A stretch of 33,213 nt of DNA, taken from positions 1-33,213 of IMG/VR virus record IMGVR_UViG_3300033993_003275. One strand, written 5' to 3'. This document shows, piece after piece, positions 556 through 33,213 of this stretch. Both the position numbers and the translations under genes were made by a program. Under the pieces are notes generated by a model. It was given only the letters and a program-made list of their open reading frames with translations, was not told the DNA's origin and did not search any database. Position 1 is the first letter of the stretch, and each line of letters opens with the position of its first letter. This stretch comes from a virus.

Positions 556-556
556 A

Positions 557-18486: not shown

Positions 18487-18488
18487 CC

Positions 18489-19637: not shown

Positions 19638-19702
19638 CGTCGGCGGGTCGGCGCCCAGCGGCCCTTGGCTGTGCTCGCGGCGCCAGTAGCTGGAGTCAGC
19701 CA

Positions 19703-20104
19703 GTGGCCGAGAAATCACGTCCCGTAGTCCTCGCGACGACCGTCGCGCTCACCGGCTCGATCGCCGTCGTCGGCAACACGTTCGACACGCGCGACAACGA
19801 GTACATTTCGCTCGTCATCAACTGGGCGAAGGACGCGGCGGAAACGCTGCTCACCGTCGAGGTGCAGGGCACGCTCGACGGGACGACGTGGGCGTCGATC
19901 CCGGTGGTGATCGACGGCTCGGCCACGATCGCCTCGGGCGTGGCAACGGCGGCGCTCGGCGAGCTGCGCTACTCGCGCGACGTGACGGGCGCGTTCCACA
20001 TCCCGCTTGAGCTCAACGGCATCCGCACCCTGCGCGTGCGGGCGTTTAGCGCGTCGGCTGGCGCGCGCGGCACGCTGTCGATCACGGCGGTCGGCGCGTC
20101 GTGA
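19703..20104 (+). CDS. Small beta-rich tail protein
   Basis: The 133-residue protein reads as an all-beta domain (VVLATTVALTGSIAVVGNTF, TLLTVEVQGTLDGTTWASIP, LNGIRTLRVRAFSASAGARG). This strand pattern resembles small phage tail or discoidin-like beta-sandwich domains, but no binding residues can be named. The start is GTG with GGAG eight bases upstream (CTGGAGTCAGCCAGTG). It ends as GTGA into the following fibre-like gene. Confidence 0.5.
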   Translation: MAEKSRPVVLATTVALTGSIAVVGNTFDTRDNEYISLVINWAKDAAETLLTVEVQGTLDGTTWASIPVVIDGSATIASGVATAALGELRYSRDVTGAFHIPLELNGIRTLRVRAFSASAGARGTLSITAVGAS

Positions 20105-20994
20105 GCATCAACTCCTCGACGCCGGGGATCCTCGGCGGCGGCGGTGGCGGCGGCGACGTGCCGGGCACGCGCACCATCACCGCAGGCACGGGCCTCACCG
20201 GCGGTGGCGACCTGAGCGCCGACCGCACGCTCACGGTTGATTTCGGCACGACTTCGGGCAAGGTCGCGCAGGGCAACGACTCGCGCATCGTCGGCGCGGT
20301 GCAGACCTCGCGCACCATCGCAACGCTCGACCTCTCTGCCGACATCAGCGTCGCCTCGCTCAACACGGCGCTGGGGATCACCGGCACCTCGACGGCGGGC
20401 ACGCGCCTCGCGGCACCGGACACGGGCTGGACGGATCAGCAGACCAACGGGACGATCAGCCGAAGCTCGTCAGTCCACACGTTCAGCAACAGCGCCAACA
20501 GCTTCGTCCGCGAGCGGCGGTTGACGATCTCGACTGCGGAGTGTCCCGCGGTCGAGTTCATCGGGCGCTTCGACGTGACGAGCGGCGCACCCGCGACCGA
20601 CTGGTATTCCGCGCTTTCCCTCGGCAGCAACGGCGACAGCTACGGCTACCTTGTGCAGGTCGATCGTCTCGGGAGCGTGGGGCTCTATCAAGCGCACGGC
20701 AGCGGATACAGCCTCGTGGCGACCTCCGGCGCGATCAGCGTGACGGCGGGCAACTGGCTGCGCATCATCGTGACGCCGAGCTACGCTTCGGCATCGTGGG
20801 GCGCTGACACCGGCGGCTCGACCCCGCCGACGACGTGGACGACAACGTCCACTGTCGCGACCACGCTGACCTCGCTCTCTGGCGGCTACCTCACGCACCT
20901 CAGCGTGCGCGCAGGGCGCGCCAACGTCGGCAGCGGAACGTTCACGACGCGGTGGCGCGACCTGCAGTACCGCATCCTCGGAGTGGCACCATGA
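20101..20994 (+). CDS. Tail-fibre-like protein
   Basis: This 297-residue protein has an N-terminal anchor MSINSSTPGILGGGGGGG and then TITAGTGLTGGGDLSADRTL, a signature common in tail fibres and collar spikes. A variable beta-rich C-terminal domain follows (YSALSLGSNGDSYGYLVQVD and RIIVTPSYASASWGADTGG), likely the receptor-facing portion. Its first 16 residues are nearly identical to those of the protein at 21197. GTG overlaps the preceding stop, and its end shares ATGA with the next gene. Confidence 0.65.
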   Translation: MSINSSTPGILGGGGGGGDVPGTRTITAGTGLTGGGDLSADRTLTVDFGTTSGKVAQGNDSRIVGAVQTSRTIATLDLSADISVASLNTALGITGTSTAGTRLAAPDTGWTDQQTNGTISRSSSVHTFSNSANSFVRERRLTISTAECPAVEFIGRFDVTSGAPATDWYSALSLGSNGDSYGYLVQVDRLGSVGLYQAHGSGYSLVATSGAISVTAGNWLRIIVTPSYASASWGADTGGSTPPTTWTTTSTVATTLTSLSGGYLTHLSVRAGRANVGSGTFTTRWRDLQYRILGVAP

Positions 20995-21200
20995 CGATCC
21001 TCGGCACACAGGTCCGCTACTACTCAATCGCGGAGCCGACGACGCCGCGCGTGGCGATCGTCACCGAGACCAGCGACGAGAACCTCGACCTCCCCGTCGA
21101 CACCGTCGCGCTCTGCGTGCTCAACCCCTCATACGTGACGATCGTCTCGCGCGCCGAGCGGAGCGACGTGCCCGCGCCGGGATGCTGGGTGATGCCATGA
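20991..21200 (+). CDS. Small tail-fibre-region protein
   Basis: This 69-residue protein starts at ATG 20991 within the ATGA overlap and ends in the ATGA overlap with the next fibre-like gene. It reads as beta-rich (TQVRYYSIAEPTTPRVAIVT, VDTVALCVLNPSYVTIVSRA). I recognise no family. Sitting between two fibre paralogs with both junctions overlapping suggests a fibre accessory or assembly role. Confidence 0.55.
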   Translation: MTILGTQVRYYSIAEPTTPRVAIVTETSDENLDLPVDTVALCVLNPSYVTIVSRAERSDVPAPGCWVMP

Positions 21201-21946
21201 GCATCAACACCTCATCCCCCGGCATTCTCGGCGGCGGCGGCGGCGCGCCCACTGGCGATCAGGTGTGGGAGGGCCTCGGTGACGCGCTCGCCGACGACCC
21301 GACGCGCATCACCGAGCTCAACGCTACGCTCGCGCTCACTCTCATGGAACAGGTGACGCTCACCGCATGGACGGAGGGCACGGCAACCGGCGGCGCTTCC
21401 GTCTCGCAGGGCACGTCTCCCTCGCGGCTGTCTTTCGCCGTGCCAGCAAGCGCCGCCGGGGCGCAGTCGGTGACGCGCACGGACCTCCTGCCGGGAGCGT
21501 CGCAGTGGGACGTGGCGGTGCGAGTGCAGGTGCTCACCGGCGACGGCAGCGCGCAGACGCGCGTGCGCCTCGTCGCGGGCGTCGGCGCGAGCGACAACGT
21601 GACGCTTGAGATCGACACCAACGGGAGCGCGATCAGCTACCGCGTCGCGTCCGCGTCGCCGACGGACATCAGCACGACCACGGGGCCGACCTCGGGGCAG
21701 CGCACCGGCGGGCAGTTGTGGCTGCGCATCCGTGGCAGCGACGCTGGCTACCGCACGCTCTGGGGCGTCGGGAGCGCGGGCGCTCTGCCGACCTCGTGGA
21801 CGGTGGCGCAGTCGCGGTCGAGCGACGCCGCGTCGGCGGTGACGTGGGGCACGCACTGCCAGGTGCTCGTCGGCACGCTCGACACGTCGGTTTCGAGCGG
21901 GCTCACGGTCGACGTGCTCGACGTGCAGGCGGCGAGGTCGCTGTGA
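21197..21946 (+). CDS. Second tail-fibre-like protein
   Basis: This 249-residue protein starts at ATG 21197 with MSINTSSPGILGGGGG, matching the N-terminus of the protein at 20101, so both probably attach to the same tip site. The rest differs: a helix (DQVWEGLGDALADDPTRITE) and a beta-rich C-terminal domain with DVAVRVQVLTGDGSAQTRVR, SYRVASASPTDISTTT and LWLRIRGSDAGYRTLWGV, a concanavalin-like pattern. It may be a receptor-binding or tip protein. GTGA links it to the receiver-domain gene. Confidence 0.58.
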   Translation: MSINTSSPGILGGGGGAPTGDQVWEGLGDALADDPTRITELNATLALTLMEQVTLTAWTEGTATGGASVSQGTSPSRLSFAVPASAAGAQSVTRTDLLPGASQWDVAVRVQVLTGDGSAQTRVRLVAGVGASDNVTLEIDTNGSAISYRVASASPTDISTTTGPTSGQRTGGQLWLRIRGSDAGYRTLWGVGSAGALPTSWTVAQSRSSDAASAVTWGTHCQVLVGTLDTSVSSGLTVDVLDVQAARSL

Positions 21947-22623
21947 GGCTCCTCGTCATCGAAGACCAGCCCGCGCTGCTGACGATGGTCTCGTCGCTGC
22001 TGCGCGAGGCGGGCCACGACGTCCGAGAGGCATCGACCGTCGCTGCGGCGCTCTCCGCGCTCGACGAGTCGCTCCCCGAGGCGGTGGTGCTCGACCTCGT
22101 CCTCGACGCGCCGTCGGCGGCTCTGCGCGAGCGCCTGCGCGCCGCGAAGCTCCCCGCGCTGCTGGTGTCGGGCGCGCCCGAAGCGGACGCCCGCAACGCC
22201 GCGATCGCCCACGGGTGGGATCTCGTGACCAAGCCCTTCGAGCCCGAGGATCTGCTCGCGCGCGTCGAGCGACTCGCGTCGACGCCACACCGGAGACCGA
22301 CGATGCCGCCGCCCTCCCCGCTCTCCCTGCCCGCTCTGCCGACGGTCGAGCCGCCGACGACGGCGCACGACCCGTGGCGCGACCGCATCCGTGTCCTCGC
22401 AGACCGCGCGATCTACGCGGGCGCCCTCGCAGCGATCGTCTACCTCGCGAAGATCAAGAGCCTCGACGTGGGCACCACCGCGGCGATCCTGCTCGTCGCC
22501 GGTGTGCGCCCTCACAACCTCTTCGAAGCACTGCGCGGCGGCGGCGGCGGCGGCGCGCGCGGCGCGATGGTGCTCCCGCTGCTGCTCGAAAACCTCCGGA
22601 GTGGATCATGGCTCGCGCGCTGA
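21943..22623 (+). CDS. Response-regulator receiver domain fused to a holin-like membrane region
   Basis: This 226-residue protein has a complete receiver domain: acidic pair E7-D8 (LLVIEDQ), phospho-acceptor D51 after VVL, switch residue S76 (LLVSG) and K97 (VTKPFEPEDLL). A proline-rich linker follows (MPPPSPLSLPALP, from residue 121), then a helix and two short hydrophobic segments (AIYAGALAAIVYLAKI about 156-171 and GTTAAILLVAGV about 177-188). A Gly-rich tail and LPLLLENLRS end it. Receiver domains are phosphorylated by histidine kinases; here one is tied to a holin-sized membrane part at the head of the lysis cassette. GTG overlaps the fibre stop. A second in-frame start is described separately. 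Confidence 0.75.
   Translation: MRLLVIEDQPALLTMVSSLLREAGHDVREASTVAAALSALDESLPEAVVLDLVLDAPSAALRERLRAAKLPALLVSGAPEADARNAAIAHGWDLVTKPFEPEDLLARVERLASTPHRRPTMPPPSPLSLPALPTVEPPTTAHDPWRDRIRVLADRAIYAGALAAIVYLAKIKSLDVGTTAAILLVAGVRPHNLFEALRGGGGGGARGAMVLPLLLENLRSGSWLAR
22303..22623 (+). CDS. Possible internal-start product: holin-like part alone
   Basis: The ATG at 22303 is in frame with the receiver-domain ORF at its residue 121. It is preceded by CGGAGACCGACG, so GGAGA lies six bases upstream, a good Shine-Dalgarno spacing. The product of 106 residues would hold only the Pro-rich start, one helix, two short hydrophobic segments and the Gly-rich tail. Dual starts are common in holin/antiholin genes, where the longer form inhibits. 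That role is inference; membrane insertion is plausible but the hydrophobic segments are short. Confidence 0.45.
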   Translation: MPPPSPLSLPALPTVEPPTTAHDPWRDRIRVLADRAIYAGALAAIVYLAKIKSLDVGTTAAILLVAGVRPHNLFEALRGGGGGGARGAMVLPLLLENLRSGSWLAR

Positions 22624-22796
22624 CTCTCGTCGCTCTGTCTCTCTCGCTGGCAGGCTGCGGCTCGACCGCCCTGCAGCTCGCCCTCAAGGCCCTTGAGGTC
22701 GCCATCACGACCGCCCAGGAGGTGCACGCGCACCACCTCGACGGCGGCGTCTGCGAGACGCCCGTGCGCGTCGTCGACGCGGGGGTCGTGGAGTGA
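22608..22796 (+). CDS. Small lipoprotein, possible outer-membrane spanin
   Basis: The 62-residue protein starts with a signal peptide and lipobox: MARALTLVALSLSLAGCGS, with cysteine at residue 17 in LAGC. After acylation a short chain of about 45 residues (ALQLALKALEVAITTAQEVH) would be exposed. Small lipoproteins next to holin and endolysin genes are often o-spanins that join inner and outer membranes at lysis. CGGAG lies eight bases before its ATG. It overlaps the end of the receiver-holin gene and ends as GTGA. A separate inner-membrane spanin partner is not certain. Confidence 0.62.
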   Translation: MARALTLVALSLSLAGCGSTALQLALKALEVAITTAQEVHAHHLDGGVCETPVRVVDAGVVE

Positions 22797-22945
22797 CGCA
22801 GCGCGAGGCTCTCCTCGAGGTCGAGGTCGCAGAGCTCCGCGCGGAGGTCGAGCGGCTGCGGGCGCAGCTCGAGCAGATCGCGCAGTGGGTCGCCCAAGAG
22901 CAAGAGCGCGCCGCGCGGCGCAGGGAGAGCATGACGTGGATCTGA
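22793..22945 (+). CDS. Small coiled-coil protein in the lysis cassette
   Basis: This short 50-residue ORF starts at GTG 22793 (GTGA overlap with the lipoprotein) and ends at TGA 22943-22945, overlapping the amidase start. It is one heptad-rich helix: EALLEVEVAELRAEVERLRA, then QLEQIAQWVAQEQER and a basic tail. No membrane segment is seen. It could pair with the lipoprotein or with the membrane protein at 23637 in a spanin-like bridge; that is inference. Its support is the coupled junctions on both sides and the clean coiled-coil pattern. Confidence 0.55.
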   Translation: MTQREALLEVEVAELRAEVERLRAQLEQIAQWVAQEQERAARRRESMTWI

Positions 22946-23640
22946 TCATCGATGGGCGTCGGCACTCGGTGCCGTGGACCGACGGCGCGACGTGGCAGGA
23001 CGGCGATCCGCGCGTCATGCCAGTGACCGATGGCGTGCGGCGCGCGGCGTCGAAGGTCCGCGCGATCTGCCTGCACACCACCCGCGGCGTCGACGGCGCG
23101 AAGATCCGCGACGGCGGGCGCCCGAGCACTCGCGCTGAGGCGCTCGCGCGGTATCAGGCGACGACCGACCGCGAGGTCAGCTGGCACCTCACGATCGACT
23201 CCGATGGGACGGTGCTGCAGCAGGCCGACCTCGGGACGTGGATGGCGTGGCACGCGGGGCACGCGAACGGATGGACCGTGGGCATCGAGCTGGTGCAGCA
23301 CCCCGACTCGCCCGACCTCTGGCGCGCGCAGCTCGACGCTCTCGTCGTGGTCTGCGCGGCGATCTCGGACGCACTGGCGATCCCTCGGCGGGTGCTCGTC
23401 GACGCCACCGGCGCCCCGCTCCTGCGCCCCGTGCGGGCGCTGCTGAGCGAGGCCGCTCGCGGCACCGGCGGCGCCCTGCTCGGCGGGCGGGGCGAGCGGT
23501 GGGGCGGCGTCGTCGGGCACTGTCAGCTCGTCCCGGCGTCGGTGCGCGGCCCCGGCGACCCCGGCCGGGCGCCGTTCGACGCGCTCCTGCAGGCGGGCTG
23601 GATGGGCGTGGCGCTTGGCCCGGACGGCCTGCTGCCGTGA
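22936..23640 (+). CDS. N-acetylmuramoyl-L-alanine amidase (endolysin)
   Basis: The 234-residue protein is a zinc amidase of the Amidase_2 (PGRP-like) family, which cuts the bond between MurNAc and L-Ala in peptidoglycan. Visible signs: AICLHTTRG (H47), SWHLTIDSDGTVLQQADLGT, WHAGHANGWTVGIELVQ (H106/H109, N111), and VVGHCQLVP (H195) followed by GDPG (D208). H47, H195 and D208 are the probable zinc ligands by family comparison. No signal peptide or binding domain is present, so release would depend on the holin. The GTG start is preceded by GGGAGA. Confidence 0.85.
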   Translation: MDLIIDGRRHSVPWTDGATWQDGDPRVMPVTDGVRRAASKVRAICLHTTRGVDGAKIRDGGRPSTRAEALARYQATTDREVSWHLTIDSDGTVLQQADLGTWMAWHAGHANGWTVGIELVQHPDSPDLWRAQLDALVVVCAAISDALAIPRRVLVDATGAPLLRPVRALLSEAARGTGGALLGGRGERWGGVVGHCQLVPASVRGPGDPGRAPFDALLQAGWMGVALGPDGLLP

Positions 23641-24104
23641 GTCGGGCTGAGGTCGCGTTCTTCCTCTCGCTGGTCATGGTCGGGGTCGCGATCGTGCGGT
23701 GGGTGTCCGTCGCGCGTCGACCGACCGCACCGGCGCCGGGCCCTGCCGACCGCGACGAGCCGCAGTGCCGTGCCCGCGGGTGCTCCTCCCCGGCGACCCG
23801 CGCCCTGCCCGAGCTGCGCCCGTGGAGGCCCCTCGCGGGCCTCCTGCCCCGGTGGGAGCCCGAGACGGATCCGGAGGGCGACCCCGCCCTCTGCAGGGCC
23901 CACCACGGGGCGCTTGAGGCCGCTCTCGCGGCGCGCGCGGCGGATGAGCGCGCAGCGACGGAGACGCACTTGGCGACGCGCCACCGCGATCTCGTCGCCT
24001 GGGCGAGCGGTCAGCTCTGCCGGGACCACGGGATCGCGCCCCCGGCCGCGCGTCCAGCCCCCCGGCCGACGGCCGAGACTGAGCCCGCGCCGCCCGTCGA
24101 GTGA
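23637..24104 (+). CDS. Membrane-anchored Cys/His-rich protein of the lysis region
   Basis: This 155-residue protein has one N-terminal membrane helix (AEVAFFLSLVMVGVAIVRWV, residues 4-23). A Pro-rich linker follows, then CRARGC (C44, C49) and LCRAHH (C86, H89, H90), which could form a small treble-clef-like metal site. A helix (ALEAALAARAADERAATETH), C128 and a Pro-rich tail complete it. The topology would suit an inner-membrane spanin or a regulator of lysis, but the metal-site pattern is not typical of spanins. GTGA overlaps on both ends. Confidence 0.55.
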   Translation: MSRAEVAFFLSLVMVGVAIVRWVSVARRPTAPAPGPADRDEPQCRARGCSSPATRALPELRPWRPLAGLLPRWEPETDPEGDPALCRAHHGALEAALAARAADERAATETHLATRHRDLVAWASGQLCRDHGIAPPAARPAPRPTAETEPAPPVE

Positions 24105-24463
24105 GGTGGTCGGCGCCGGTCCTGCGGGCGCTGCTCGGGCTCTCGCGGGCGCCCGCGCAGGCGACGGTTGACGAGCTCGTCGACGCCGCGCGCGACGCGC
24201 ACGTCCCGGCCGCTCTGGTGCTGGCGGTCTGTCAGGTCGAGAGCGGCCTCGGCACTCGCGGGGCGATCCTCTGCGGCTGCGGGGTCGACCGCTCAGTGCG
24301 GGCGCAGGCGCGGTGCGCGGCGGCGACGCTCGCGCACGGGCGGCGGCTGTGTGGCGGGTGGGCTGGATCGCTGCGGCGGTACCGCTACGGCGGGTGCCCG
24401 GCAGCCGACCCCAGGCGCTACGTCCTGCGGGTCGGCGTCTACGGGCGGCGGATGGGGCTCTAG
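24101..24463 (+). CDS. Lytic-transglycosylase-like protein
   Basis: The 120-residue protein contains AAREAH-like helix and VPAALVLAVCQVESGLGTRG, a motif of SLT/goose-lysozyme-type transglycosylases with catalytic Glu at residue 47. Later RRYRYGGCP (about 92-100) resembles the family's AYN-G box and YVLRVGVYGRRM the end helix. It is short for a full SLT domain (usually about 130-150), and six cysteines suggest disulfides or metal. If active it cleaves the glycan strand at lysis or DNA entry. Its TAG stop shares CTAG with the stop of the opposite-strand gene at 24460. Confidence 0.65.
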   Translation: MRWSAPVLRALLGLSRAPAQATVDELVDAARDAHVPAALVLAVCQVESGLGTRGAILCGCGVDRSVRAQARCAAATLAHGRRLCGGWAGSLRRYRYGGCPAADPRRYVLRVGVYGRRMGL

Positions 24464-24663
24464 CAGGCGCGGCGCGCGACGGCGCGGGCCGTCTCCCAGA
24501 GGTCGTCGTCATCGACGGAGCGGCCCGTCGAGTCGAGCACGTCGACCACCTCGAGGTGGGCGGCGACGTACGGCGAGACGAGGCCGCCCTCGGCGGGCAC
24601 CACCTCGCAGTGGGCGATGTAGTCGCGGTCGTCGTGATCGAAAGCGATGTCGTGGGTCGTCAT
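24460..24663 (-). CDS. Small acidic protein, early region
   Basis: The 67-residue acidic protein (MTTHDIAFDHDDRDYIAHCE) has three short strands and a C-terminal helix (DDDLWETARAVARRAC). I recognise no family. The leader GGAGATAGACGACC before its ATG is a variant of the repeated leader in this region. It is the last gene of the unit driven from 25460-25488. Its stop overlaps the stop of the convergent transglycosylase gene. Confidence 0.6.
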   Translation of the reverse strand: MTTHDIAFDHDDRDYIAHCEVVPAEGGLVSPYVAAHLEVVDVLDSTGRSVDDDDLWETARAVARRAC

Positions 24664-24688
24664 GGTCGTCTATCTCCTCAACGCCGCA

Positions 24689-24715
24689 AGCCCCGCCGGT
24701 CACCCGGTCGGGGCT
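24689..24715 (-). other. Stem-loop between early genes
   Basis: AGCCCCG/CGGGGCT plus inner CCGG/CCGG form an 11-bp stem with one bulge. On the transcribed strand the loop is GUGA, a GNRA tetraloop. It lies between the 24748 stop and the 24663 start. No U-run follows, so it is more likely an mRNA processing, stability or attenuation element than a terminator. Confidence 0.65.
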
Positions 24716-24747
24716 GTTGCGTCCGGCGGCTGCCGGTGTCGCGAGGC

Positions 24748-25413
24748 TCAGAACTCCATGATCGTCGCGGCGATCTCAGCCGCGCGCTGCTCTGCAAGGA
24801 ACTCTTCGTAGCTTGCGTTGATCTCGCGCACCATCGCGAGGCACTCGTTGATCGTCGCGATGCGCTCAGCGGCCGTCCGCCCCTTGGATCCGTAGGGAGA
24901 CGCGGCGTCGTGCGCGCGAGAGTGCGCCTTGTTGATCAGCCCCGCGGCGAGGTACGGAGGCCAGGTGTAGAGGTCGAGGCCCATGACGCGCCACTCCTCG
25001 CGACGCGACGAGAAGTCCGCGTGCACCGCACCCTCCTTCCACTCGGCGTCGAGGGTCGCCATCACCGGGGCGATCGCGCGCTTCGCCTCGGCGTTGGCGC
25101 GGTTCGCGGCGCGCCACTCGGCGAGCTCACCGGCGGCGACCCGCTTGGCAGCCTCAGCGACGATCTTCTTCGTGACCCTCGCGAGAACAGTACCCCGGCC
25201 GGTGCAGTCATAGCAGCGAGTGTCGCCGTAGGAGTTGCGGCTGTAGTGCCCGCCGCCGCCGCAGCGGCCGCAGGTCTGAATGTACCCCAGGGCGGCGAGG
25301 CACCGCTCGACGCGGCCCTTCGCATCGCGCTCATCGCGCACGCCCTTGCAGTCGAGGGCGAGAGCGTAGTCCATCCAAGTGGCTTCGGTCTTCGTGGCGG
25401 CGGCGGTCGTCAT
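24748..25413 (-). CDS. Protein with DnaJ-like zinc-finger motifs
   Basis: The 221-residue protein carries two CxxCxGxG motifs, CGRCGGGG and CYDCTGRG, about 20 residues apart (about residues 48-75). They resemble half of the DnaJ cysteine-rich domain and would bind one zinc. The helix-rich rest (KIVAEAAKRVAAGELAEWRA, RTAAERIATINECLAMVREI) is not recognised. The start at 25413 is chosen because the repeated leader GGAGAGACGACC directly precedes it, and the promoter at 25460-25488 lies about 45 bases upstream. Phage homologs of this type are common in early regions of GC-rich phages, function unknown. Confidence 0.7.
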   Translation of the reverse strand: MTTAAATKTEATWMDYALALDCKGVRDERDAKGRVERCLAALGYIQTCGRCGGGGHYSRNSYGDTRCYDCTGRGTVLARVTKKIVAEAAKRVAAGELAEWRAANRANAEAKRAIAPVMATLDAEWKEGAVHADFSSRREEWRVMGLDLYTWPPYLAAGLINKAHSRAHDAASPYGSKGRTAAERIATINECLAMVREINASYEEFLAEQRAAEIAATIMEF

Positions 25414-25427
25414 GGTCGTCTCTCCGG
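25409..25427 (-). repeat. Repeated ribosome-binding leader, copy A
   Basis: On the + strand this reads GTCATGGTCGTCTCTCCGG, that is CCGGAGAGACGACCATGAC on the coding strand. It spans the ATG and the Shine-Dalgarno GGAGAG. The identical 19-mer occurs at 27021-27039, and related variants precede the genes starting at 24663 and 26402. Confidence 0.8.
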
Positions 25428-25459
25428 TGGCGTCGGGCTCCATCGCCCTGACAAAAGAG

Positions 25460-25488
25460 ACTCTAACCGGGGTGCCTAGCGGCGTCAA
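25460..25488 (-). promoter_or_regulatory. Early promoter P1 (leftward)
   Basis: On the minus strand a -35 TTGACG (25483-25488) and a -10 TAGAGT (25460-25465) are separated by 17 bases. The expected start is about 40 bases before the 25413 gene. The -35 overlaps the right arm of the operator palindrome at 25481-25506. It aligns base for base with P2 over the -35 and upstream. Confidence 0.75.
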
Positions 25489-25506
25489 CGAGAATTAGCA
25501 GACGCC
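25481..25506. promoter_or_regulatory. Operator-like palindrome, copy 1
   Basis: GGCGTC and GACGCC arms are separated by 14 bases. The same arms at the same spacing occur at 27095-27120. On the minus strand one arm covers the P1 -35 box. The adjoining bases GTGACGATT (25507-25515) are also shared. A dimeric regulator could occlude or recruit polymerase here. Confidence 0.65.
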
Positions 25507-25516
25507 GTGACGATTG

Positions 25517-25541
25517 CAGAAAACCGCTAGATATCTAGGCG
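25517..25541 (-). repeat. 25-bp element, copy 1 (inverted relative to copy 2)
   Basis: Read on the minus strand it starts CGCCTAGATATCTAGCGG and continues with TTTTCTG. It matches the element at 27138-27162 at 21 of 25 positions but in the opposite orientation. It contains a perfect 12-bp palindrome CTAGATATCTAG and includes the TAG stop of the 25535 gene. It sits directly upstream of the P1 operator. Confidence 0.7.
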
Positions 25542-25894
25542 TATCCGCGCGACTTCAGCCACCGCGCGCGGTGCTCCGCGCGGGCTGCGGCTTTCGCGGC
25601 CTTGGCGGTCGCGCTGGCGACTGCGGCGGCGCGCGCCTGCTCGGCGGTCGGAGGCGGCGGGAGGGGCGCTCCGGGGCGCCATCCGGGGCGCGGCTCGGGC
25701 AGCTCGTGGCCGTGAGCGACGAGCCACCGGCGCCACCGCTGCGTCGTCCCGCGGGGGACGCGCAGAGCCTCGTCGGCGGCGGCGAGAGAGGGCGCCGCGC
25801 GGATCGCGTCGACCACGACGACCTCCCAGGCGAGCGGGCCGATGGGCAGCTCCGCGAGGCGCGAGACGAGGCCGGTGCAGGGGTGGCGCTTCAC
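25535..25894 (-). CDS. Putative HTH DNA-binding protein
   Basis: The 119-residue basic protein has an HTH-like segment DAIRAAPSLAAADEALRVPR, then GTTQRWRRWLVAHG (about residues 29-62), like the Fis/homeodomain-type motifs of phage regulators. An Ala/Arg/Lys-rich C-terminal helix (AARAEHRARWLKSRGYA) follows a Pro-rich linker. The GTG at 25894 is chosen because it forms GTGA with the upstream stop; a GTG at 25927 would also be in frame. It is a candidate for the factor that binds the paired operators, purely by neighbourhood. Confidence 0.6.
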   Translation of the reverse strand: MKRHPCTGLVSRLAELPIGPLAWEVVVVDAIRAAPSLAAADEALRVPRGTTQRWRRWLVAHGHELPEPRPGWRPGAPLPPPPTAEQARAAAVASATAKAAKAAARAEHRARWLKSRGYA

Positions 25895-26070
25895 GGCTGC
25901 CTCGGGGGCTGGATGAGCTGCGCGCACCGCGCGAGGAGCGCCTTCGACTCCTCGAGGATGGCGCGCGCCTGCGCCACTCGTTCGTCGAGGGCTTTGACGG
26001 TCACGTCGAGGCGGGCCTTGAGGTTGAGCATGGCCTGATAGCAGGCCGTCGCGTGGTCATCGGGGGTCAT
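25891..26070 (-). CDS. Small helical protein, early region
   Basis: The 59-residue protein is a single long helix or helical hairpin (AMLNLKARLDVTVKALDERV, then AQARAILEESKALLARCAQL) and may form a coiled coil. The ATG at 26070 follows GGAGACACAGAC, a variant of the local leader. It is translationally coupled to the HTH-like gene. I recognise no family. Confidence 0.55.
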   Translation of the reverse strand: MTPDDHATACYQAMLNLKARLDVTVKALDERVAQARAILEESKALLARCAQLIQPPRQP

Positions 26071-26100
26071 GTCTGTGTCTCCTCCGCGGCGCGTCGTGCG

Positions 26101-26136
26101 CCGTCCGCGAGGCTCCCGCAGGAGCGCCGCGGACGG
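26101..26136 (-). other. Strong stem-loop between early genes
   Basis: CCGTCCGCG (26101-26109) pairs with CGCGGACGG (26128-26136). After a 2x2 internal loop, GCTCC pairs with GGAGC around a four-base loop. On the transcribed strand that loop is UGCG, a UNCG-type tetraloop. It lies between the genes ending at 26157 and starting at 26070, with no U-run after it. Confidence 0.7.
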
Positions 26137-26156
26137 GGCGCGAGGCCCCTGAGCGG

Positions 26157-26402
26157 TCAGGCCGAGAGGTGCTCCTCCGCGGCGCGGAGGATCGCGTCGC
26201 GGTAGAGGCGCATCGCGCGGAGCGCGACCGCCTCCGTGCACCCGTAGTCGTGAATGATGGTCGGCAGTTCCCACTCGCAGGAGCGGACCCCCGAGTGGTT
26301 CTCAACGTCATTCACGACCTTGCGGGCGAGGTCGGCGGGCGAGTCCGCGGTGGCGATGTCGGCAGCGGCCATGGAGCGGGCGATGGTCTTGGCGGTGGTC
26401 AT
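26157..26402 (-). CDS. Small hypothetical protein, early region
   Basis: This 81-residue, mainly helical protein contains SPADLARKVVNDVENHSGVR, CEWELPTIIHDYGCTEAVAL and RAMRLYRDAILRAAEEHLSA. I know no function. The start at 26402 is set by the leader AGGAGAGACCGACC. It lies between two stem-loop regions in the P2 unit. Its gene order with the 179-residue protein suggests joint early expression. Confidence 0.6.
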   Translation of the reverse strand: MTTAKTIARSMAAADIATADSPADLARKVVNDVENHSGVRSCEWELPTIIHDYGCTEAVALRAMRLYRDAILRAAEEHLSA

Positions 26403-26425
26403 GGTCGGTCTCTCCTGTGGGTGAT

Positions 26426-26473
26426 CTGACGGCCTCGTCAGGCGCCGCGTCACGGCGCGACCCCTTGCGGGGT
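26426..26473 (-). other. Three tandem stem-loops between early genes
   Basis: Three hairpins follow each other with at most one base between them: CTGACG/CGTCAG (26426-26441), GCGCCG/CGGCGC (26442-26458) and ACCCC/GGGGT (26460-26473). They fill the gap between the stop at 26486 and the start at 26402. On the transcribed minus strand no U-run follows. The repeated use suggests RNA-level control. Confidence 0.7.
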
Positions 26474-26485
26474 TTCGGCCTCGGG

Positions 26486-27025
26486 TCACCAGCTGAAGCT
26501 GTCGAAGGCCCGGTTTACCGCCGCGCGCACCTCGGCGCTGATGGACTCGCCGCTGCGGCGGGTGCCGCCGCTCCATGAGGTCGTCACCTCGCGCACCTCG
26601 GCGCCGTCGAACTCGGCCCGCAGGCGCTTGACGATGTGCTGCGCGCATCGCTCAACGGTCTCGTCGTCGCAGAGGCCCTGCGAGTCGATGCTGTCGCGGG
26701 AGGTGCTGACGTAGATGTCGGCGCCCGCGTACTCCGGCGCGTAGATCTCCCACAGCTTCGACCAGTCGGGCTCGACGCCGAGGAGCTCAGCGTGCTCCGA
26801 GATGAGGTCGCTGTCGCCGGGGAGCCAGTCGGCGGGCGACCACTCCTCGTCGGAGCCGAGCTGCTCCATCGCGGCCTCGCGGCACTCGACAGCGAGGCAG
26901 CGGAGGTAGATCTCCGCGAACTGCTCCGCAGTCGTGTCGGCGTAGCAGGCCGCGTGCGCGGCCTCGCGGGCGTCGGTGTCGAGCAGGTGGGCGATGGAGT
27001 CGAGGTGGGTCTGCGTGATGGTCAT
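26486..27025 (-). CDS. Acidic early protein of unknown function
   Basis: This 179-residue protein is strongly acidic in its first two thirds (GSDEEWSPADWLPGDSDLIS, VEPDWSKLWEIYAPEYAGAD). It then has a more mixed C-terminal part (VKRLRAEFDGAEVREVTTSW) ending NRAFDSFSW. I recognise no family. As the first gene after promoter P2 it is probably expressed early. A DNA-mimic or inhibitor role is possible from the charge alone. The start is set by the leader GGAGAGACGACC directly before the ATG. Confidence 0.65.
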   Translation of the reverse strand: MTITQTHLDSIAHLLDTDAREAAHAACYADTTAEQFAEIYLRCLAVECREAAMEQLGSDEEWSPADWLPGDSDLISEHAELLGVEPDWSKLWEIYAPEYAGADIYVSTSRDSIDSQGLCDDETVERCAQHIVKRLRAEFDGAEVREVTTSWSGGTRRSGESISAEVRAAVNRAFDSFSW

Positions 27026-27039
27026 GGTCGTCTCTCCGG
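27021..27039 (-). repeat. Repeated ribosome-binding leader, copy B
   Basis: This is identical over 19 bases to 25409-25427 (GTCATGGTCGTCTCTCCGG on the + strand). It spans the start codon of the 27025 gene and its Shine-Dalgarno GGAGAG. Confidence 0.8.
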
Positions 27040-27073
27040 TTCGTCGCGAGGTCCGTCCCCGTCGACGAAGGGA

Positions 27074-27102
27074 AAGCTAAACCGAGACCCGCGCGGCGTC
27101 AA
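27074..27102 (-). promoter_or_regulatory. Early promoter P2 (leftward)
   Basis: On the minus strand TTGACG (27097-27102) is followed after 17 bases by TAGCTT (27074-27079), a weaker -10 than that of P1. It would drive the four genes from 27025 to 25535. The -35 overlaps the operator palindrome exactly as in P1. Confidence 0.68.
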
Positions 27103-27120
27103 CGAATAATCGTCGACGCC
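27095..27120. promoter_or_regulatory. Operator-like palindrome, copy 2
   Basis: GGCGTC-N14-GACGCC has the same arms and spacing as at 25481-25506, again followed by GTGACGATT (27121-27129). The spacers differ at several positions while the arms are identical, which suggests selection on the arms. Confidence 0.65.
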
Positions 27121-27137
27121 GTGACGATTCTTCGAAA

Positions 27138-27162
27138 CGCCTAGAATTCCAGCGGTTTTCAG
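27138..27162 (+). repeat. 25-bp element, copy 2 (inverted relative to copy 1)
   Basis: On the + strand it starts CGCCTAGAATTCCAGCGG and continues TTTTCAG. It matches copy 1 at 21 of 25 positions but lies the other way round relative to the promoter. Its end includes the TGA stop of the cysH-like gene (27159-27161). The copies lie 1.6 kb apart and bracket the P2 gene set. Confidence 0.7.
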
Positions 27163-28064
27163 GCGTGCATTCGCGCGTCGGGCATCCACGACAGCAGCGT
27201 GCGGTAGAGCGACGGGTAGTACCGTCGCAGCCACGCGACCTGCCCGTCCTGCGTGTGCCCTGCAGGCAGCCACCAGGCGACGCGGATGCGCGAGGGATCG
27301 TCGCGGTGCATGAGCCCGACGCAGCGGTAGACCGGCAGCAGCTCGACGTCGTAGCGCGCGGCATAGCCGTAGACATCGATGCCGCGGAACTCCGCGACGG
27401 GGTAGCAGCGCCAGTGGCCGCTTCCCTTGTGCCAGCGCGTGAGCCCGCTGTTCGGGCCTTCCTCGCCCGCTTCGCGACGACGCCACGCCTCGCGAATCGC
27501 CCATCCCGCAACGCGATCGCGATTCTTCGACTCCTCGCGCCGCAGGCCGAGGAACGCGAGCGGACGCGTGGCGTTGTCGCGCTCCATCAGCGGGTAGAAC
27601 GTCTGCTCCGACAGCCCCGCGGCGCGCGTGTGCGCGTCGTCGTGGCACATGATCTCGCCGCGCGCAGCGGCGTCAGCGATGAACTGTCGCGCGCTGATGG
27701 TCGGCACGATGAGGTGTTGCGCGATGCCGAGCCGAGCCGCGCGAGCGGCGGCGTACTCGTGCTCGCCGGGGTAGTCGAGATCGTCCTGCTGAGTGACCGC
27801 GACGACGTGGCGACAGCCTGCGAGCTCAGCGATGAGGTGCAACATCACCGTCGAGTCCTTCCCGCTGGATGCGCTCGCGCCAGGCGGTGCGGTGCGGCCG
27901 GGCACGGGATGGCGCGCGACCCACTCGCAGGCCTCGATCACCGCGACGCGGGCGCGCTCGACCTTGCGCGCGAAGGCCTGCGTCCGTGCGTGCTCGCGAG
28001 CGGCGCGCATCCACGCGTCCCACACCTCGCGGTCGTCGTCGGTCAGGATCGGCTCGGGCTGCAT
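27159..28064 (-). CDS. cysH: CysH-like PP-loop (PAPS reductase family) enzyme
   Basis: The 301-residue protein has the PP-loop SASSGKDST (residues 64-72), which binds ATP pyrophosphate. It then has HVVAVTQQDDLDYPGEHEYA and FLGLRREESKNRDR, the family's second conserved box. A C-terminal region follows with HWRCYPVAEFRGIDVYGYAA and PVYRCVGLMHRDD. PAPS-reductase-family enzymes include sulfonucleotide reductases, DndC of DNA phosphorothioation, and the ancillary CysH-like protein of type IV-B CRISPR loci. The classical ECGLH ending is not present, so plain sulfate reduction is doubtful. ATG is preceded by GGAGG and overlaps the GNAT gene by 22 bases. It is the last gene of the csf operon. Substrate unknown. 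Confidence 0.82.
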   Translation of the reverse strand: MQPEPILTDDDREVWDAWMRAAREHARTQAFARKVERARVAVIEACEWVARHPVPGRTAPPGASASSGKDSTVMLHLIAELAGCRHVVAVTQQDDLDYPGEHEYAAARAARLGIAQHLIVPTISARQFIADAAARGEIMCHDDAHTRAAGLSEQTFYPLMERDNATRPLAFLGLRREESKNRDRVAGWAIREAWRRREAGEEGPNSGLTRWHKGSGHWRCYPVAEFRGIDVYGYAARYDVELLPVYRCVGLMHRDDPSRIRVAWWLPAGHTQDGQVAWLRRYYPSLYRTLLSWMPDARMHA

Positions 28065-28423
28065 GGCTCTCGCCTCCAGTAGTAACCTTTTGGGCCGCGA
28101 CGCCACGGCGCGAATCCAGCGCGCCGATACGCCGCAGCGCTGGCGGTGTTTACGTCGGAGATGAACGCCACGCACACGCGGTCGCGATATGGCTCCCACG
28201 CGTCGCGCAGAAGGCCGAGACCTCGGTACGCAGGCGCGACCCACACGGGGGAAAGTCGCCATCCGAGCTTGCTCGCGTGCGGCGTGACGAAGCCTGCGAC
28301 GGTGCCGTCGCACACCAGCGGTACACGCAACGCGTCGGGCTTCACGAAGCCCTTGATCGCGGGATGACGGTTCGCCTCGCGCAGCATCTCTGGCGGGATC
28401 ACCAGCGGTTCTTGCGCAGCCAT
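28043..28423 (-). CDS. GNAT-family acetyltransferase-like protein
   Basis: This 126-residue protein has the acetyl-CoA loop VWVAPAYRGLGL (residues 60-71, with the RGLG turn) and the later helix NTASAAAYRRAGF (92-104), both classical GNAT features. Before them lie substrate-side strands (LRVPLVCDGTVAGFVTPHAS). The gene overlaps the methyltransferase by 25 bases upstream and cysH by 22 downstream, with GGAGG ahead of its ATG. In phages some GNAT-like enzymes modify DNA bases (for example Mom) while others acylate small molecules or proteins. Which applies here cannot be read from the sequence. Confidence 0.78.
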   Translation of the reverse strand: MAAQEPLVIPPEMLREANRHPAIKGFVKPDALRVPLVCDGTVAGFVTPHASKLGWRLSPVWVAPAYRGLGLLRDAWEPYRDRVCVAFISDVNTASAAAYRRAGFAPWRRGPKGYYWRREPCSPSRS

Positions 28424-29016
28424 TTGACTGTGACCTCCGCGCGCTTGGGATTGAGCTCGACACCGCGGAAGATCATCCCCGCCGCGACCGCGGCGCGAGC
28501 GGTGAAGCCCTTACCGCAGCACGGGTCGAGCACGACACGGCGGAAGTCACCGACCTCGGCGACGCAGGCGCGCGGGAGTTCGCGCGCGTTGAGCGAGCTC
28601 GGGTCGAAGTCCGCGCGCAGCGGTGCGCCCGCGTAGAGCAGCGCGTTAGGCAGGAGCCTCGCGCCGCTGCGGTACTGCACCGTCCAGCGGCGCGAGACGA
28701 CGATGCCGACGCGCTCGAGCGCCGCCGCAAACTCGTCCGCCCACTGAAGACCCATCTCGACGAAGACCGGCGCGCCCGGCTTCGTGGCATCGGCGACGGC
28801 CCGCGTCCACGCGGCGACGAACGCGTCCCACGACGGGCGCGTCGCGTCGCCAGCGTGGGTGCGCCAGTAGCGCAGATTGCCCTCGCCCCACGGGGGGTCG
28901 GAATAGACGACGTCCGCGAGGTCGCCTGCCATGCACTGCGCGACCGCGCCGAGCATCACGTCACCGACCACCACGCGGTGTGGCTCCACGTCGTGCGTCA
29001 CCCCGCCAGCAGACAT
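28399..29016 (-). CDS. DNA amino-methyltransferase, beta class (N6-adenine or N4-cytosine)
   Basis: The 205-residue enzyme has the catalytic motif IV, VVYSDPPWGEGNLRYW, with DPPW at residues 40-43. The AdoMet-binding motif I comes late, VVLDPCCGKGFTARAA (D164) plus GVELNP (185-190). Catalytic-first order marks the beta class of N6A/N4C methyltransferases. It is small and lacks a clear large target-recognition domain. ATG 29016 is chosen because GGGAGGAACT precedes it, not the longer frame upstream, which is a shadow of csf3. It overlaps csf3 by 19 bases. It may protect phage DNA or make a substrate for further modification. Confidence 0.85.
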   Translation of the reverse strand: MSAGGVTHDVEPHRVVVGDVMLGAVAQCMAGDLADVVYSDPPWGEGNLRYWRTHAGDATRPSWDAFVAAWTRAVADATKPGAPVFVEMGLQWADEFAAALERVGIVVSRRWTVQYRSGARLLPNALLYAGAPLRADFDPSSLNARELPRACVAEVGDFRRVVLDPCCGKGFTARAAVAAGMIFRGVELNPKRAEVTVKWLRKNRW

Positions 29017-29678
29017 AGTTCCTCCCGGTCGCGCTCGAAGTAGGGGTAGGTCACGCAGCCGTAACCCTCGTGCGCCTGCGCGGCCTCGGCGTCCATCGCG
29101 TCGTGCGGGAGGTTGCGCGTCGGGCGACCGTCGCGGATCACGGGGAAGCCCTCGCCCCACGACGCGCAGGGCTCGACCGTCCACCGGCCGATGCGCCCGA
29201 GGCCGACGCCGCGGCGCTTGCCGAGGTGCGTGACCCACGCGAGGCGCGCGCGCACCTCGTCAGCGTCACCGACCGCGTACCAGGTGATCACGTCACCCTT
29301 GAGATGCGCGGTCTCAAGGGGGATGCGGAAGCTCTTGCACGGGCCTCCCTGCAGCGACAGCGTGCCGAGGCGCTGCTTGCCTTCGGCGGCGCCGACCATC
29401 TGCGCCTCGTTGAGCGGGAAGCGGCGGTTGACGTAGCGCCCGCGCTCCCACTGCTCGACCTCGGCGAGCGCGAACGACGCGAGGTAGTAGCGCCCGCAGG
29501 AGCTCCGCGCGAGCACGCCGTCGAGGCTCACCGGCGGCACCGGCAGGCGCGGGTCCGCGGGCTCGCGGGCCTCGACGTAGACGGCCTGCACGAAGGCCAG
29601 CAGACCGTCGAGCGCAGGCGGGCGCAGAGGGTTGGCGATCGCCGTCTCCAGCGTCGCGGTGACGCGCAGCGGGATCAC
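28998..29678 (-). CDS. csf3: Csf3, Cas5-like subunit of a type IV CRISPR complex
   Basis: The 226-residue protein has VPPVSLDGVLARSS (residues 47-60), a form of the csf3 N-terminal box, and QGGPCKSFRIPLETAHLKGD. It also has a glycine-rich loop HLGKRRGVGLGRIGRWTVEP (about 151-170) of RAMP folds. In type IV complexes Csf3 binds the 5' handle of the guide next to Csf1. GTG overlaps the csf2 stop (GTGA) without its own ribosome-binding site, so it is translationally coupled. Charged and Cys-containing C-terminal residues follow. Confidence 0.8.
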   Translation of the reverse strand: MIPLRVTATLETAIANPLRPPALDGLLAFVQAVYVEAREPADPRLPVPPVSLDGVLARSSCGRYYLASFALAEVEQWERGRYVNRRFPLNEAQMVGAAEGKQRLGTLSLQGGPCKSFRIPLETAHLKGDVITWYAVGDADEVRARLAWVTHLGKRRGVGLGRIGRWTVEPCASWGEGFPVIRDGRPTRNLPHDAMDAEAAQAHEGYGCVTYPYFERDREELCLLAG

Positions 29679-30721
29679 GCGTTGACCGTCCGCAGGTACT
29701 CGGTGATCTTCGCCGCGCGCTCGGTGAGGTGGCCGACGAAGGCGTCGCCGACCTTGCCACCGGCGGGCGCGAGCGCGCTCTCCGCGGAGTCGCCGACGCG
29801 AGCGAGACCGATGCTCTGCGGCTCCGACAGCGACAGGCCCTTGCGCACGGTGCGGCGCGCGTCGACCACGCGGAGCTTGCCGTGCCCGACGCTGTGTCCG
29901 CCGCCCACGACCATGTGCTGCGCGAGGTAGCAGAGGCTCGCGTAGAACGCGTCCATCACGAGCGGCTCGAAGAGGTCGACCTCGACGCGCCAGAAGAACA
30001 GCGAGCCCTGCACGAGCCGCTCGAAACGGCGCGGCATCATCGTGCTCTTCGCGGCGTCCTTCGCGCCCGCGTCGCCCTCACGGGACGCGCGCTCCGACGC
30101 CTCGAGGCGCCGCTCGATCTTGTCGCTGTCGCCGCTCTCGAGGAGTCGGCGAAGGTCGGGGCGCAGCGACGGGTCCATGCGGACGCGCTGCACTTCCTCG
30201 ACGCTCTCGCGGTAGGTCGCCTCGTGGGCGCGCCCGTGCGCCGCAACGAGCTCGACCGCCCAGGGCGGCAGGAAGCGGGCGCTCTCTGCGCACACCAGCG
30301 TCGCGTCGTCCACCGACAGCGTGCCGGGGATCGTGCGGTTCTCCGCGCAGCCGCCGAGGAACGCGAGCTGCGGGACCATCTCGACCATGCGGCGGTATTC
30401 GCCCATCCGCACCGAGCCCGCGTCTCCGCTGCCGGTGACCATGCCGCCCGCGAACAGCAGGCGCAGCGCGGCTTCGGAGAGCTGCGGGCCCTGCTCGCCG
30501 TTGATCGCGTGCACGAGGATCCACGCCGACGCGGCGCGCAGCCCGTGGCGCATGGCGTCGCCCGAGAGCATGGGCACGCGAGCGATCGATCCGTCGAGCT
30601 GACGCACGTTGCGGGTCGCGATGATCGCGCTGTTGCCGAAGCTCTCCGAGAGGTGCTTGATGGGCTGCTCGGCCTCGAGGACGAGTTCGATGATGTGCTT
30701 CTCGATGATGCGTGCGCTCAC
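29675..30721 (-). CDS. csf2: Csf2, Cas7-like backbone subunit
   Basis: The 348-residue protein matches the type IV Cas7 pattern: IELVLEAEQPIKHLSESFGN, IIATRNVRQLDGSIARVPML, then SGDAMRHGLRAASAWILVH, the conserved SGD...R segment of Csf2. A charged helical insertion (about residues 165-225, RRLLESGDSDKIERRLEASE) is probably the thumb or lid. The C-terminal Gly-rich loop is VVGGGHSVGHGKLRVVDAR. Cas7 subunits polymerise along the guide RNA. GTG start has AGGAG eight bases upstream and overlaps cas11 by four bases. Confidence 0.85.
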   Translation of the reverse strand: MSARIIEKHIIELVLEAEQPIKHLSESFGNSAIIATRNVRQLDGSIARVPMLSGDAMRHGLRAASAWILVHAINGEQGPQLSEAALRLLFAGGMVTGSGDAGSVRMGEYRRMVEMVPQLAFLGGCAENRTIPGTLSVDDATLVCAESARFLPPWAVELVAAHGRAHEATYRESVEEVQRVRMDPSLRPDLRRLLESGDSDKIERRLEASERASREGDAGAKDAAKSTMMPRRFERLVQGSLFFWRVEVDLFEPLVMDAFYASLCYLAQHMVVGGGHSVGHGKLRVVDARRTVRKGLSLSEPQSIGLARVGDSAESALAPAGGKVGDAFVGHLTERAAKITEYLRTVNA

Positions 30722-31101
30722 TGTGATTTCTCCTGTTCCGCAAGGCGTTCTGCGCGGCGCTCTTCGGCGAGGCGCCGCGCCTTCGCGATCATGTACGCGT
30801 ACTCACGCTCGACGAGGGCGAGCCACCGCGCGGCGCCGAACCGCCGGGCCTCCTCCGTCAGTGCCTCCATCGCCCCAGAGAGAGAGCTGGATGGTGCTGA
30901 CAGGCGCAGGTCGCGCGACAGCTTCGTCACCCACTCCTCCGGGCCCGCGCTCGTCCGCGTCGCTGCGCGGAGCCGGCTCTCGATCTGATCCCAGTGCGAC
31001 AGCGGGTTCGCTCCGGTCGCGAGGAACGACCGGCGCAGCTCCATCACCACGTCCACCGTCAGATCCGTCAGGTGTTCCTTCTGTGCTTCGTTTGGCTCCA
31101 T
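30718..31101 (-). CDS. cas11: Cas11-like small subunit
   Basis: The 127-residue all-helical protein (KEHLTDLTVDVVMELRRSFL, EEWVTKLSRDLRLSA, REYAYMIAKARRLAEERRAE) fits a Cas11 small subunit, which lines the belly of type I, III and IV-B effectors. It has the expected size and position between csf1 and csf2. AAGGGACGCG precedes its ATG. Third-codon positions are strongly GC in this frame and not in the overlapping csf1 frame, so this frame is the main coding one over 30803-31101. Assignment depends on position and fold pattern since Cas11 sequences are very divergent. Confidence 0.68.
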   Translation of the reverse strand: MEPNEAQKEHLTDLTVDVVMELRRSFLATGANPLSHWDQIESRLRAATRTSAGPEEWVTKLSRDLRLSAPSSSLSGAMEALTEEARRFGAARWLALVEREYAYMIAKARRLAEERRAERLAEQEKSQ

Positions 31102-31903
31102 CGCGTCCCTTCTTCTTCGGCTTCGCGGCCTTCGCCGCTTCCTTCTCGCGCGCCTTCTTCGCCGCGCGCTCCTCGGCCTCGCGCGCCATGCGGGCCTCCA
31201 CCGCAGCCTCGTCGCGCTGCGCGAGGAACACGACGAGGCCGAACCACCCGCTGCCGCGGAGGTGACCGTGGGCGCGCTCGAACGCGCGGACCTCGGCCTC
31301 GCAGCGCGAGAGGGCGCCGCGGTACTGCCCGCGCTCGACCTCCTCCTTCGTCGCGCCCGCGGTGAGCAGCGCCGCGAGCTCGTCGACGATGCGCCAGCCC
31401 GCGGCGTCGCGCGGGAGTTCGATCAACTCCTCGTCGAAGAGCGCGAGCGCGCGGCCGGGGCCGTTGAGCGGGACGTACGGCACGACGTGCTTCTGGCCGC
31501 TGTTCGCGAGCGCCGCGAACCATGGGCCTCGGTGCGGTCGACGGAGCCACGCGAGCACCGCAGGCTTGTCGCCCTTGCTCTTGATCACGAGGGGCTCGCC
31601 CTCGGCGTAGAGCACGCTGTAGTTCCGCCAGTTGCCGGTGAGGCCGGGGACCGGCGTGAGTCGCGCCATCACCCAGAGGCAGGGCTCGCAGATCGCCTGG
31701 CCGCGCGGGTAGCGCACGCGCGACTGGCCCGTGTACGACGCGCTGTCCCAGTCGGCGACGGCGCACCCGCGCCCGTCCGTGGTGCCCGAGCAGACCCAGC
31801 AGCGAGACCAGTCGCCCTCGCGCTCGACGGGCAGCGCGGAGGCCTTGTGGCTCTCGGGCGACCCGCAGGCGCGCCAGAGCAGACGAGACGGCGACTCACG
31901 CAT
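30803..31903 (-). CDS. csf1: Csf1, Cas8-like large subunit of type IV CRISPR
   Basis: From the ATG at 31903 (GGAGG six bases upstream) the ORF gives 366 residues. The zinc finger is visible as CWVC (35-38) and CEPC (72-75) with C47 between. Then NWRNYSVLYAEGEPLVIKSK and a NSGQKHVVPYVPLNGPG box follow, as expected for type IV Csf1. Helical charged sequence (RMAREAEERAAKKAREKEAA) leads to residue 267. From 31101 on, 99 residues overlap the cas11 frame and are Gly/Asp/Pro-rich with A/T-rich third positions. This tail may be read-through; the functional end may be near 31100. Csf1 recognises the guide handle and probably the protospacer flank. Confidence 0.82.
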   Translation of the reverse strand: MRESPSRLLWRACGSPESHKASALPVEREGDWSRCWVCSGTTDGRGCAVADWDSASYTGQSRVRYPRGQAICEPCLWVMARLTPVPGLTGNWRNYSVLYAEGEPLVIKSKGDKPAVLAWLRRPHRGPWFAALANSGQKHVVPYVPLNGPGRALALFDEELIELPRDAAGWRIVDELAALLTAGATKEEVERGQYRGALSRCEAEVRAFERAHGHLRGSGWFGLVVFLAQRDEAAVEARMAREAEERAAKKAREKEAAKAAKPKKKGRDGAKRSTEGTPDGSDGGRGDGAAPVVPRDRSEPAVALGSDREPAPRSDADERGPGGVGDEAVARPAPVSTIQLSLWGDGGTDGGGPAVRRRAVARPRRA

Positions 31904-33035: not shown

Positions 33036-33213
33036 TCTAGCAGGTCGAGCTGGCGCGGGCGCGCCTTGCGCGCGACGCCCTTGAACCGATGCGCGCGTGC
33101 CGCGACCTCCGCGGCCACGAGCTCGCCGTCGTCGGCCTCCACGAACACGATGGTGCCCTTGCTCGCGGCGCTCGCGTGCACGGACGCGATGATGCGCGCC
33201 AGGCCTTCGTCGG
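33011..33213 (-). CDS. C-terminal fragment of an unidentified protein with a clamp-binding-like tail
   Basis: The frame enters the window at 33213 and ends at TGA 33011-33013; 67 complete codons before the stop are visible. It reads GLARIIASVHASAASKGTIV, then FVEADDGELVAAEVAARAHR and a basic linker to RPRQLDLLEWRPPLGI. The QLDLLEW piece resembles the beta-clamp-binding consensus QL(S/D)LF found at the end of polymerases, nucleases and some helicases or phage replication proteins. The rest gives no family; an alpha/beta toprim-like strand is conceivable. It is the first visible gene of the operon and overlaps the Cas6-like ORF by 25 bases. Confidence 0.6.
   Translation of the reverse strand, partial: DEGLARIIASVHASAASKGTIVFVEADDGELVAAEVAARAHRFKGVARKARPRQLDLLEWRPPLGI

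Follow-up and report, generated by a model that had tools for sequence, protein, structure and literature searches.

Two leftward promoters of a soil phage share a putative palindromic operator next to a type IV CRISPR-Cas operon

Two promoters of nearly the same build, P1 and P2, lie 1,614 bp apart on the minus strand of a soil phage, and at both of them a long palindrome overlaps the -35 box. This twin layout is real and is that of an ordinary phage regulatory module, of the kind in which phage promoters share operators. On balance, we favour the reading that the module is a duplicated (or kept-alike) promoter-operator read by a homodimer, which would repress two operons of small genes together.

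The window analysed here is the whole of the IMG/VR virus record IMGVR_UViG_3300033993_003275, a linear sequence of 33,213 bp with a G+C content of about 71% that is probably a fragment; its source is a tailed phage. Rightward genes, including those for the terminase, portal, major head protein and endolysin, run from before position 419 to 24463; the leftward genes extend from the right end to 24460. Read from right to left, the leftward genes encode a Cas6-like protein, a product in the place of Csf1 without assignment, Cas11, Csf2, Csf3, a DNA methyltransferase, a GNAT protein and a CysH-like protein, and are followed by six small genes. At the other end of the record, before the terminase gene, 419-1432 (plus strand) has a PHROG match to beta-glucosyl-HMC-alpha-glucosyltransferase (E 5e-45), a hint that the phage DNA is modified. 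P2 precedes four of the small genes (27025 down to 25535, minus strand): three without a known family, encoding 179 aa (26486-27025), 81 aa (26157-26402) and 59 aa (25891-26070), and a fourth that starts with GTG and encodes 119 aa (25535-25894), a weak candidate for a helix-turn-helix protein, modelled with a long helix at its C-terminus. P1 precedes the other two (25413 down to 24460, minus strand), which encode a 221-aa protein with a CxxCxGxG-type zinc-finger-like motif and matches to PHROG families of unknown function (24748-25413), and an acidic 67-aa protein of no known family (24460-24663).

The original prediction had described two leftward modules of the same layout, and every element was found at the minus-strand position claimed for it: AATCGTCA, then a palindrome whose right arm overlaps the -35 box TTGACG, 17 bp of spacer and a -10 box of the form TAnnnT. 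At P1 the minus strand reads AATCGTCA CGGCGTCTGCTAATTCTCGTTGACGCCG CTAGGCACCCCGGT TAGAGT, with the conserved flank at 25508-25515, the operator O1 at 25480-25507, the -35 box at 25483-25488 and the -10 box at 25460-25465; the predicted start is near 25453. At P2 it reads AATCGTCA CGGCGTCGACGATTATTCGTTGACGCCG CGCGGGTCTCGGTT TAGCTT, with the flank at 27122-27129 (about -55 to -62), the operator O2 at 27094-27121, the -35 box at 27097-27102, overlapping the right operator arm, and the -10 box at 27074-27079; here a start near 27067 is predicted from position. Hexamers of sigma-70 type, 16-18 bp apart and upstream of a gene start, are thus present at both. The two -35 boxes agree with the consensus at 5/6 positions, while the -10 box of P2 is poor (3/6). 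P1 was the sole promoter-like site called in a promoter scan of 18000-33213 on both strands. Furthermore, the pattern TTGnnn-N16-18-TAnnnT occurs in two of the five gaps of the six-gene block, and these are exactly the two operator gaps; RNA structure is present in the three gaps without promoter-like boxes and is strong in two of the three. Within the small-gene block, strong G+C hairpins lie in the gaps 24664-24747 and 26071-26156 (minus strand; z -3.7 and -3.3), with no Rfam match. Each predicted start is about 40 nt ahead of a ribosome site and ATG, and the likeness extends to the leader, as the 20-nt ribosome-binding/start stretch of the first P1 gene (25409-25428, minus strand) is identical to that of the first P2 gene (GGAGAGACGACCATGAC, 27021-27040, minus strand).

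The palindrome had been put forward as GGCGTC-N14-GACGCC, with identical arms and spacing at both promoters and with spacers that differ. The arms and the spacing are indeed the same at P1 and P2. The spacers are not identical, but they agree at 8 of 14 positions, and since the TCGTT within them is common to both sites, it appears to be part of a longer half-site. From its sequence we would therefore refine the operator to 28 bp, consisting of two 12-bp half-sites, CGGCGTCaaCGA and TCGTTGACGCCG, around 4 bp. The right half-site TCGTTGACGCCG is the same in O1 and O2 (12/12); the reverse complement of the left half-site matches it at 11/12 positions in O2 and at 9/12 in O1. O2 is the only 12-4-12 dyad in the window with 11/12 symmetric positions, and O1 is clearly less symmetric. 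Scored against a 24-position consensus, O2 reaches 23 and O1 21, and no other 28-mer of the window exceeds 17; the consensus was built from O1 and O2 themselves, so that this gap is partly built in, while the symmetry of O2 is not. In both promoters the centre of the operator falls at about -40.5 relative to the predicted start, with the -35 box inside the right half-site. As expected of a dimeric operator, the same symmetric site occurs at more than one promoter and is absent from coding sequence, both exact sites being located in gaps.

A scan of the whole record for GGCGTC-N14-GACGCC returned two matches, at P1 and P2 only, rather than many random ones. In 200 dinucleotide shuffles of the 33.2-kb record, the mean number of exact matches was 0.03 and two were never obtained. 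Loose versions of the palindrome, with two mismatches, are not enriched (14 against 16 by chance), and perfect 7-bp dyads with N14, of which the window holds 14, are not rare in such G+C-rich DNA. Hence, the dyad alone is weak evidence, and it is the repetition at two equivalent places that carries weight. Ungapped alignment of the P1 and P2 gaps gives identities of 30/36 and 41/56, compared with maxima of 27 and 35 in 2,000 gap shuffles, and the pair ranks first among the 36-bp direct repeats across the window. For a length of 56 bp, the best direct repeat in the window is found within the late genes, at 20093-20148 and 21189-21244 (plus strand; 42/56, 1,096 bp apart). The identity between the P1 and P2 gaps is concentrated in the operator, with unbroken runs of 15 bp and 13 bp, and in the ribosome site; the stretch between them is near random.

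We base a mechanism on this anatomy, on its non-randomness, on the order of promoter, ribosome site and gene, and on the finding of no other copy in the record. A promoter-operator module would have been duplicated, or kept alike, ahead of two leftward small-gene operons, and a homodimeric DNA-binding protein would read its 28-bp palindrome. The bound dimer would cover TTGACG and thereby keep a sigma-70-type RNA polymerase off P1 and P2 at once, so that the six small genes would be on or off together, with a timing in infection that we likewise infer. The operator position near -40.5 fits repression or activation alike; we weigh repression above activation because the -35 boxes are near consensus and the spacer is ideal. 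Counted against repression are the flank AATCGTCA, which lies outside the palindrome and goes beyond what a simple dimer site explains, the weaker symmetry of O1, and a centre near -41, where class II activators classically bind. The original prediction had also spoken of one early regulon of six genes under a single regulator. Its outline stands, with two modules and one shared operator placed to drive four plus two small leftward genes; these are probably switched by one DNA-binding protein and may be expressed early.

If the regulator were the 119-aa protein, whose gene is the last of the P2 operon, autoregulation would follow as well. The protein is a possible regulator, judging from a weak candidate helix-turn-helix. 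Its Pfam HTH_23 match (E=0.11) is below the cut-off; its single-sequence model (pLDDT 72, pTM 0.40) shows a trihelical part resembling a helix-turn-helix, together with the long helix at the C-terminus. In structure searches, Foldseek returned nothing below E=2.6 and VIA gave a best Z of 3.7, and many of the rows were winged-helix or LysR DNA-binding domains, all below the useful threshold. A PylC-like Pfam match of the same protein (E 0.003, below the cut-off) was set aside as chance. Since the record is a fragment, sequence outside the 33.2 kb may hold further operators or the gene of the regulator.

In temperate phages, such as lambda with its OL and OR regions, paired early promoters share repressor operators. 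The likeness to the present case is that several promoters of one phage have a shared palindromic operator over promoter elements, with one dimer controlling all of them. In contrast to lambda, P1 and P2 point the same way, each has a single operator, the repressor gene is a candidate only, and the 12-bp half-sites and the arm sequence differ. The L5-type stoperators of cluster A mycobacteriophages are also phage operators repeated upstream of genes of one direction; they comprise more than 20 asymmetric 13-mers that are bound by a monomer and directed along transcription (PMC9283540). The present sites, only two in number, long and palindromic, do not belong to such a system.

A different use of the same palindrome, which we hold to be distinctly less likely than repression, is as an activator site: a dimer at about -41 would touch the polymerase at the -35 box and switch both operons on, in the class II manner. 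Class II sites lie near -41.5 over the -35 box, and the centres of O1 and O2, reckoned from the predicted starts, agree with this. The poor -10 box of P2 points in the same direction, and a precedent is provided by gp6, a small protein of phage GIL01, whose palindromic binding site, with its centre at -43.5, overlaps the -35 element (PMC6182141). However, two -35 boxes at 5/6 with a 17-bp spacer do not require activator dependence, and P1 scores as a promoter by itself. The GIL01 promoter concerned, P3, is a late promoter that is activated by gp6 and also has LexA sites (PMC6182141). Its likeness to P1 and P2 is a palindrome that overlaps the -35 element with a centre near -41 to -44; the present sites differ from it in sequence and length, and their activating role is putative.

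It is improbable, in our estimation, that the two sites simply go back to a recently duplicated gene start with no regulator involved, their identity being due to descent and the palindrome incidental. Such an origin would account for a similarity that runs over the leader and the ribosome site, including the identical 20-nt start stretch. Descent by itself, however, would not focus identity on a symmetric element covering the -35 box, as is seen in the 15-bp and 13-bp runs of the operator, with near-random sequence between operator and ribosome site.

Just upstream of the small genes, 27159-33035 (minus strand) is a phage-borne type IV CRISPR-Cas operon, with genes for the CysH-like protein (27159-28064), Csf3 (28998-29678), Csf2 (29675-30721) and Cas11 (30718-31101), and a Cas6-like C-terminal domain encoded at 31896-33035 (Pfam E 0.01, PADLOC E 0.002), all on the minus strand. 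A GNAT-like acetyltransferase and a DNA methyltransferase are encoded between Csf3 and the CysH-like gene (28043-29016, minus strand). Csf3, Csf2, Cas11 and the CysH-like protein make up the IV-B set, yet the Cas6-like domain is present; IV-B has been described as having no crRNA-processing enzyme (PMC8175902). No CRISPR array caught attention in the window during analyses aimed at other features.

P2 lies directly after this operon on the same strand, which brings in the least probable of the alternatives, namely that the sites act not as DNA operators but as RNA hairpins in read-through transcripts (a terminator, a processing site, or a solitary CRISPR-repeat-like unit for the Cas6-like or type IV proteins). 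The predicted folds are strong at P2 (-22.5 kcal/mol, z -6.7) and at P1 (-14.5 kcal/mol, z -4.5), the 8-nt flank is conserved, and solitary repeat units are known in phages (PMC10651486). We nevertheless regard this as very unlikely: both sites lie ahead of the starts predicted for the genes that follow them, the inner stem pairs differ, without compensation in P1, neither site has an Rfam family match, and the order of -35 box, -10 box, ribosome site and ATG at both is left unexplained. The operator as a terminator was rejected, as no U-tract follows the sites. We give very little credence to a dual role, in which the units of AATCGTCA plus stem-loop would act as DNA operators of the small genes downstream and also as RNA elements, cut out by the phage Cas6-like protein and loaded by the Csf complex of type IV. 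If it were true, the RNA of cysH-associated type IV systems, so far unexplained, could come from such units.

The flanks of the modules contain further symmetric elements. In P2, AATCGTCA also forms a second, overlapping dyad, AATCGTC-N8-GACGATT, which is absent from P1, and the 15-mer AATCGTCACGGCGTC was found only at the P2 flank and at 25501-25515. A second palindrome, A+T-rich and imperfect (GAAACGCCTAGAATTCCAGCGGTTTTC), occupies 27134-27160, just past the stop of the CysH-like gene, and its counterpart in the other orientation (GAAAACCGCTAGATATCTAGGCGTATC; core CTAGATATCTAG) occupies 25519-25545, at the end of the gene 25535-25894. With one member upstream of each module, they form an inverted pair that is 85% alike, and none of 2,000 shuffles was as good. 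Their RNA folding is only moderate; they may be weak (bidirectional) terminators or a second kind of protein site.

Searches of IMG/VR, the GenBank phages and the GTDB genomes brought up no relative with this region. Neither CACGGCGTC-N12-TTGACGCCG in IMG/VR nor TCACGGCGTC-N9-TCGTTGACGCCG in 84,980 prokaryote genomes (GTDB) gave a match. The looser CGGCGTC-N12-TTGACGCCG gave 61 loci, which we take to be chance matches because none had a T-A-3N-T -10 box at 16-18 bp and none encoded a relative of the gene block. Protein relatives of the small genes, Csf2 and the CysH-like protein were absent from IMG/VR, and the phage records had no DNA match and no Csf2 match. A terminase search returned 11 close relatives in IMG/VR (97-100% identity) and none in GTDB genomes, and the endolysin gene added one more; where readable, these correspond to the left part or to sequence ahead of the terminase, and none reaches the operator region. 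One-mismatch palindrome matches in these relatives were discarded, the rest of the site being unlike the operator. A literature search on the palindrome returned nothing useful.

The P2 transcript, the longer of the two, appears to cut itself by a hammerhead ribozyme, as read from its sequence. A type II hammerhead is predicted between the first and second P2 genes (26424-26480, minus strand), with GUC cleavage predicted between 26459 and 26458. Rfam Hammerhead_II matches over its full length (1-66) at 24.5 bits, which is below the gathering score of 37; that score is a curated annotation threshold and not a structural feature of the ribozyme, and a match below it goes unmarked by standard annotation. 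The core is complete (GAAA, the GUC cleavage triplet and CUGACGA), with stems of 4, 5 and 6 pairs in the layout GGCC-GAAA-CCCC GCAA GGGG-UC-GCGCCG UGACG CGGCGC-CUGACGA-GGCC, in which stems I and III are closed by loops and stem II is open. As read from the sequence, UGAC of loop I can pair with GUCA of the tail after stem II; a loop I/tail pseudoknot of four or more pairs has been described for type II hammerheads (PMC3088659). A descriptor of the architecture matched the record once, at this place, and had no match in any of 150 shuffles. The whole core, the three stems, the pseudoknot and the intergenic place in a phage operon are all as in the type II hammerheads of bacteria and phages (PMC3088659), from which 26424-26480 differs in scoring below the Rfam gathering cut-off. 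We assign it to a known kind, previously unmarked here, and it would contribute to the working of the P2 unit: if active, it would cut the P2 mRNA between genes 1 and 2.

Taken together, our results link six anonymous small phage genes into what would be one regulated set, and the 28-bp site offers an exact probe for isolating the regulator. More interesting than the promoters themselves is what surrounds them, namely the type IV CRISPR-Cas operon and the hammerhead. With the former alongside and an apparent hammerhead in its longer transcript, the region offers a compact system in which to test layered control of accessory phage genes.
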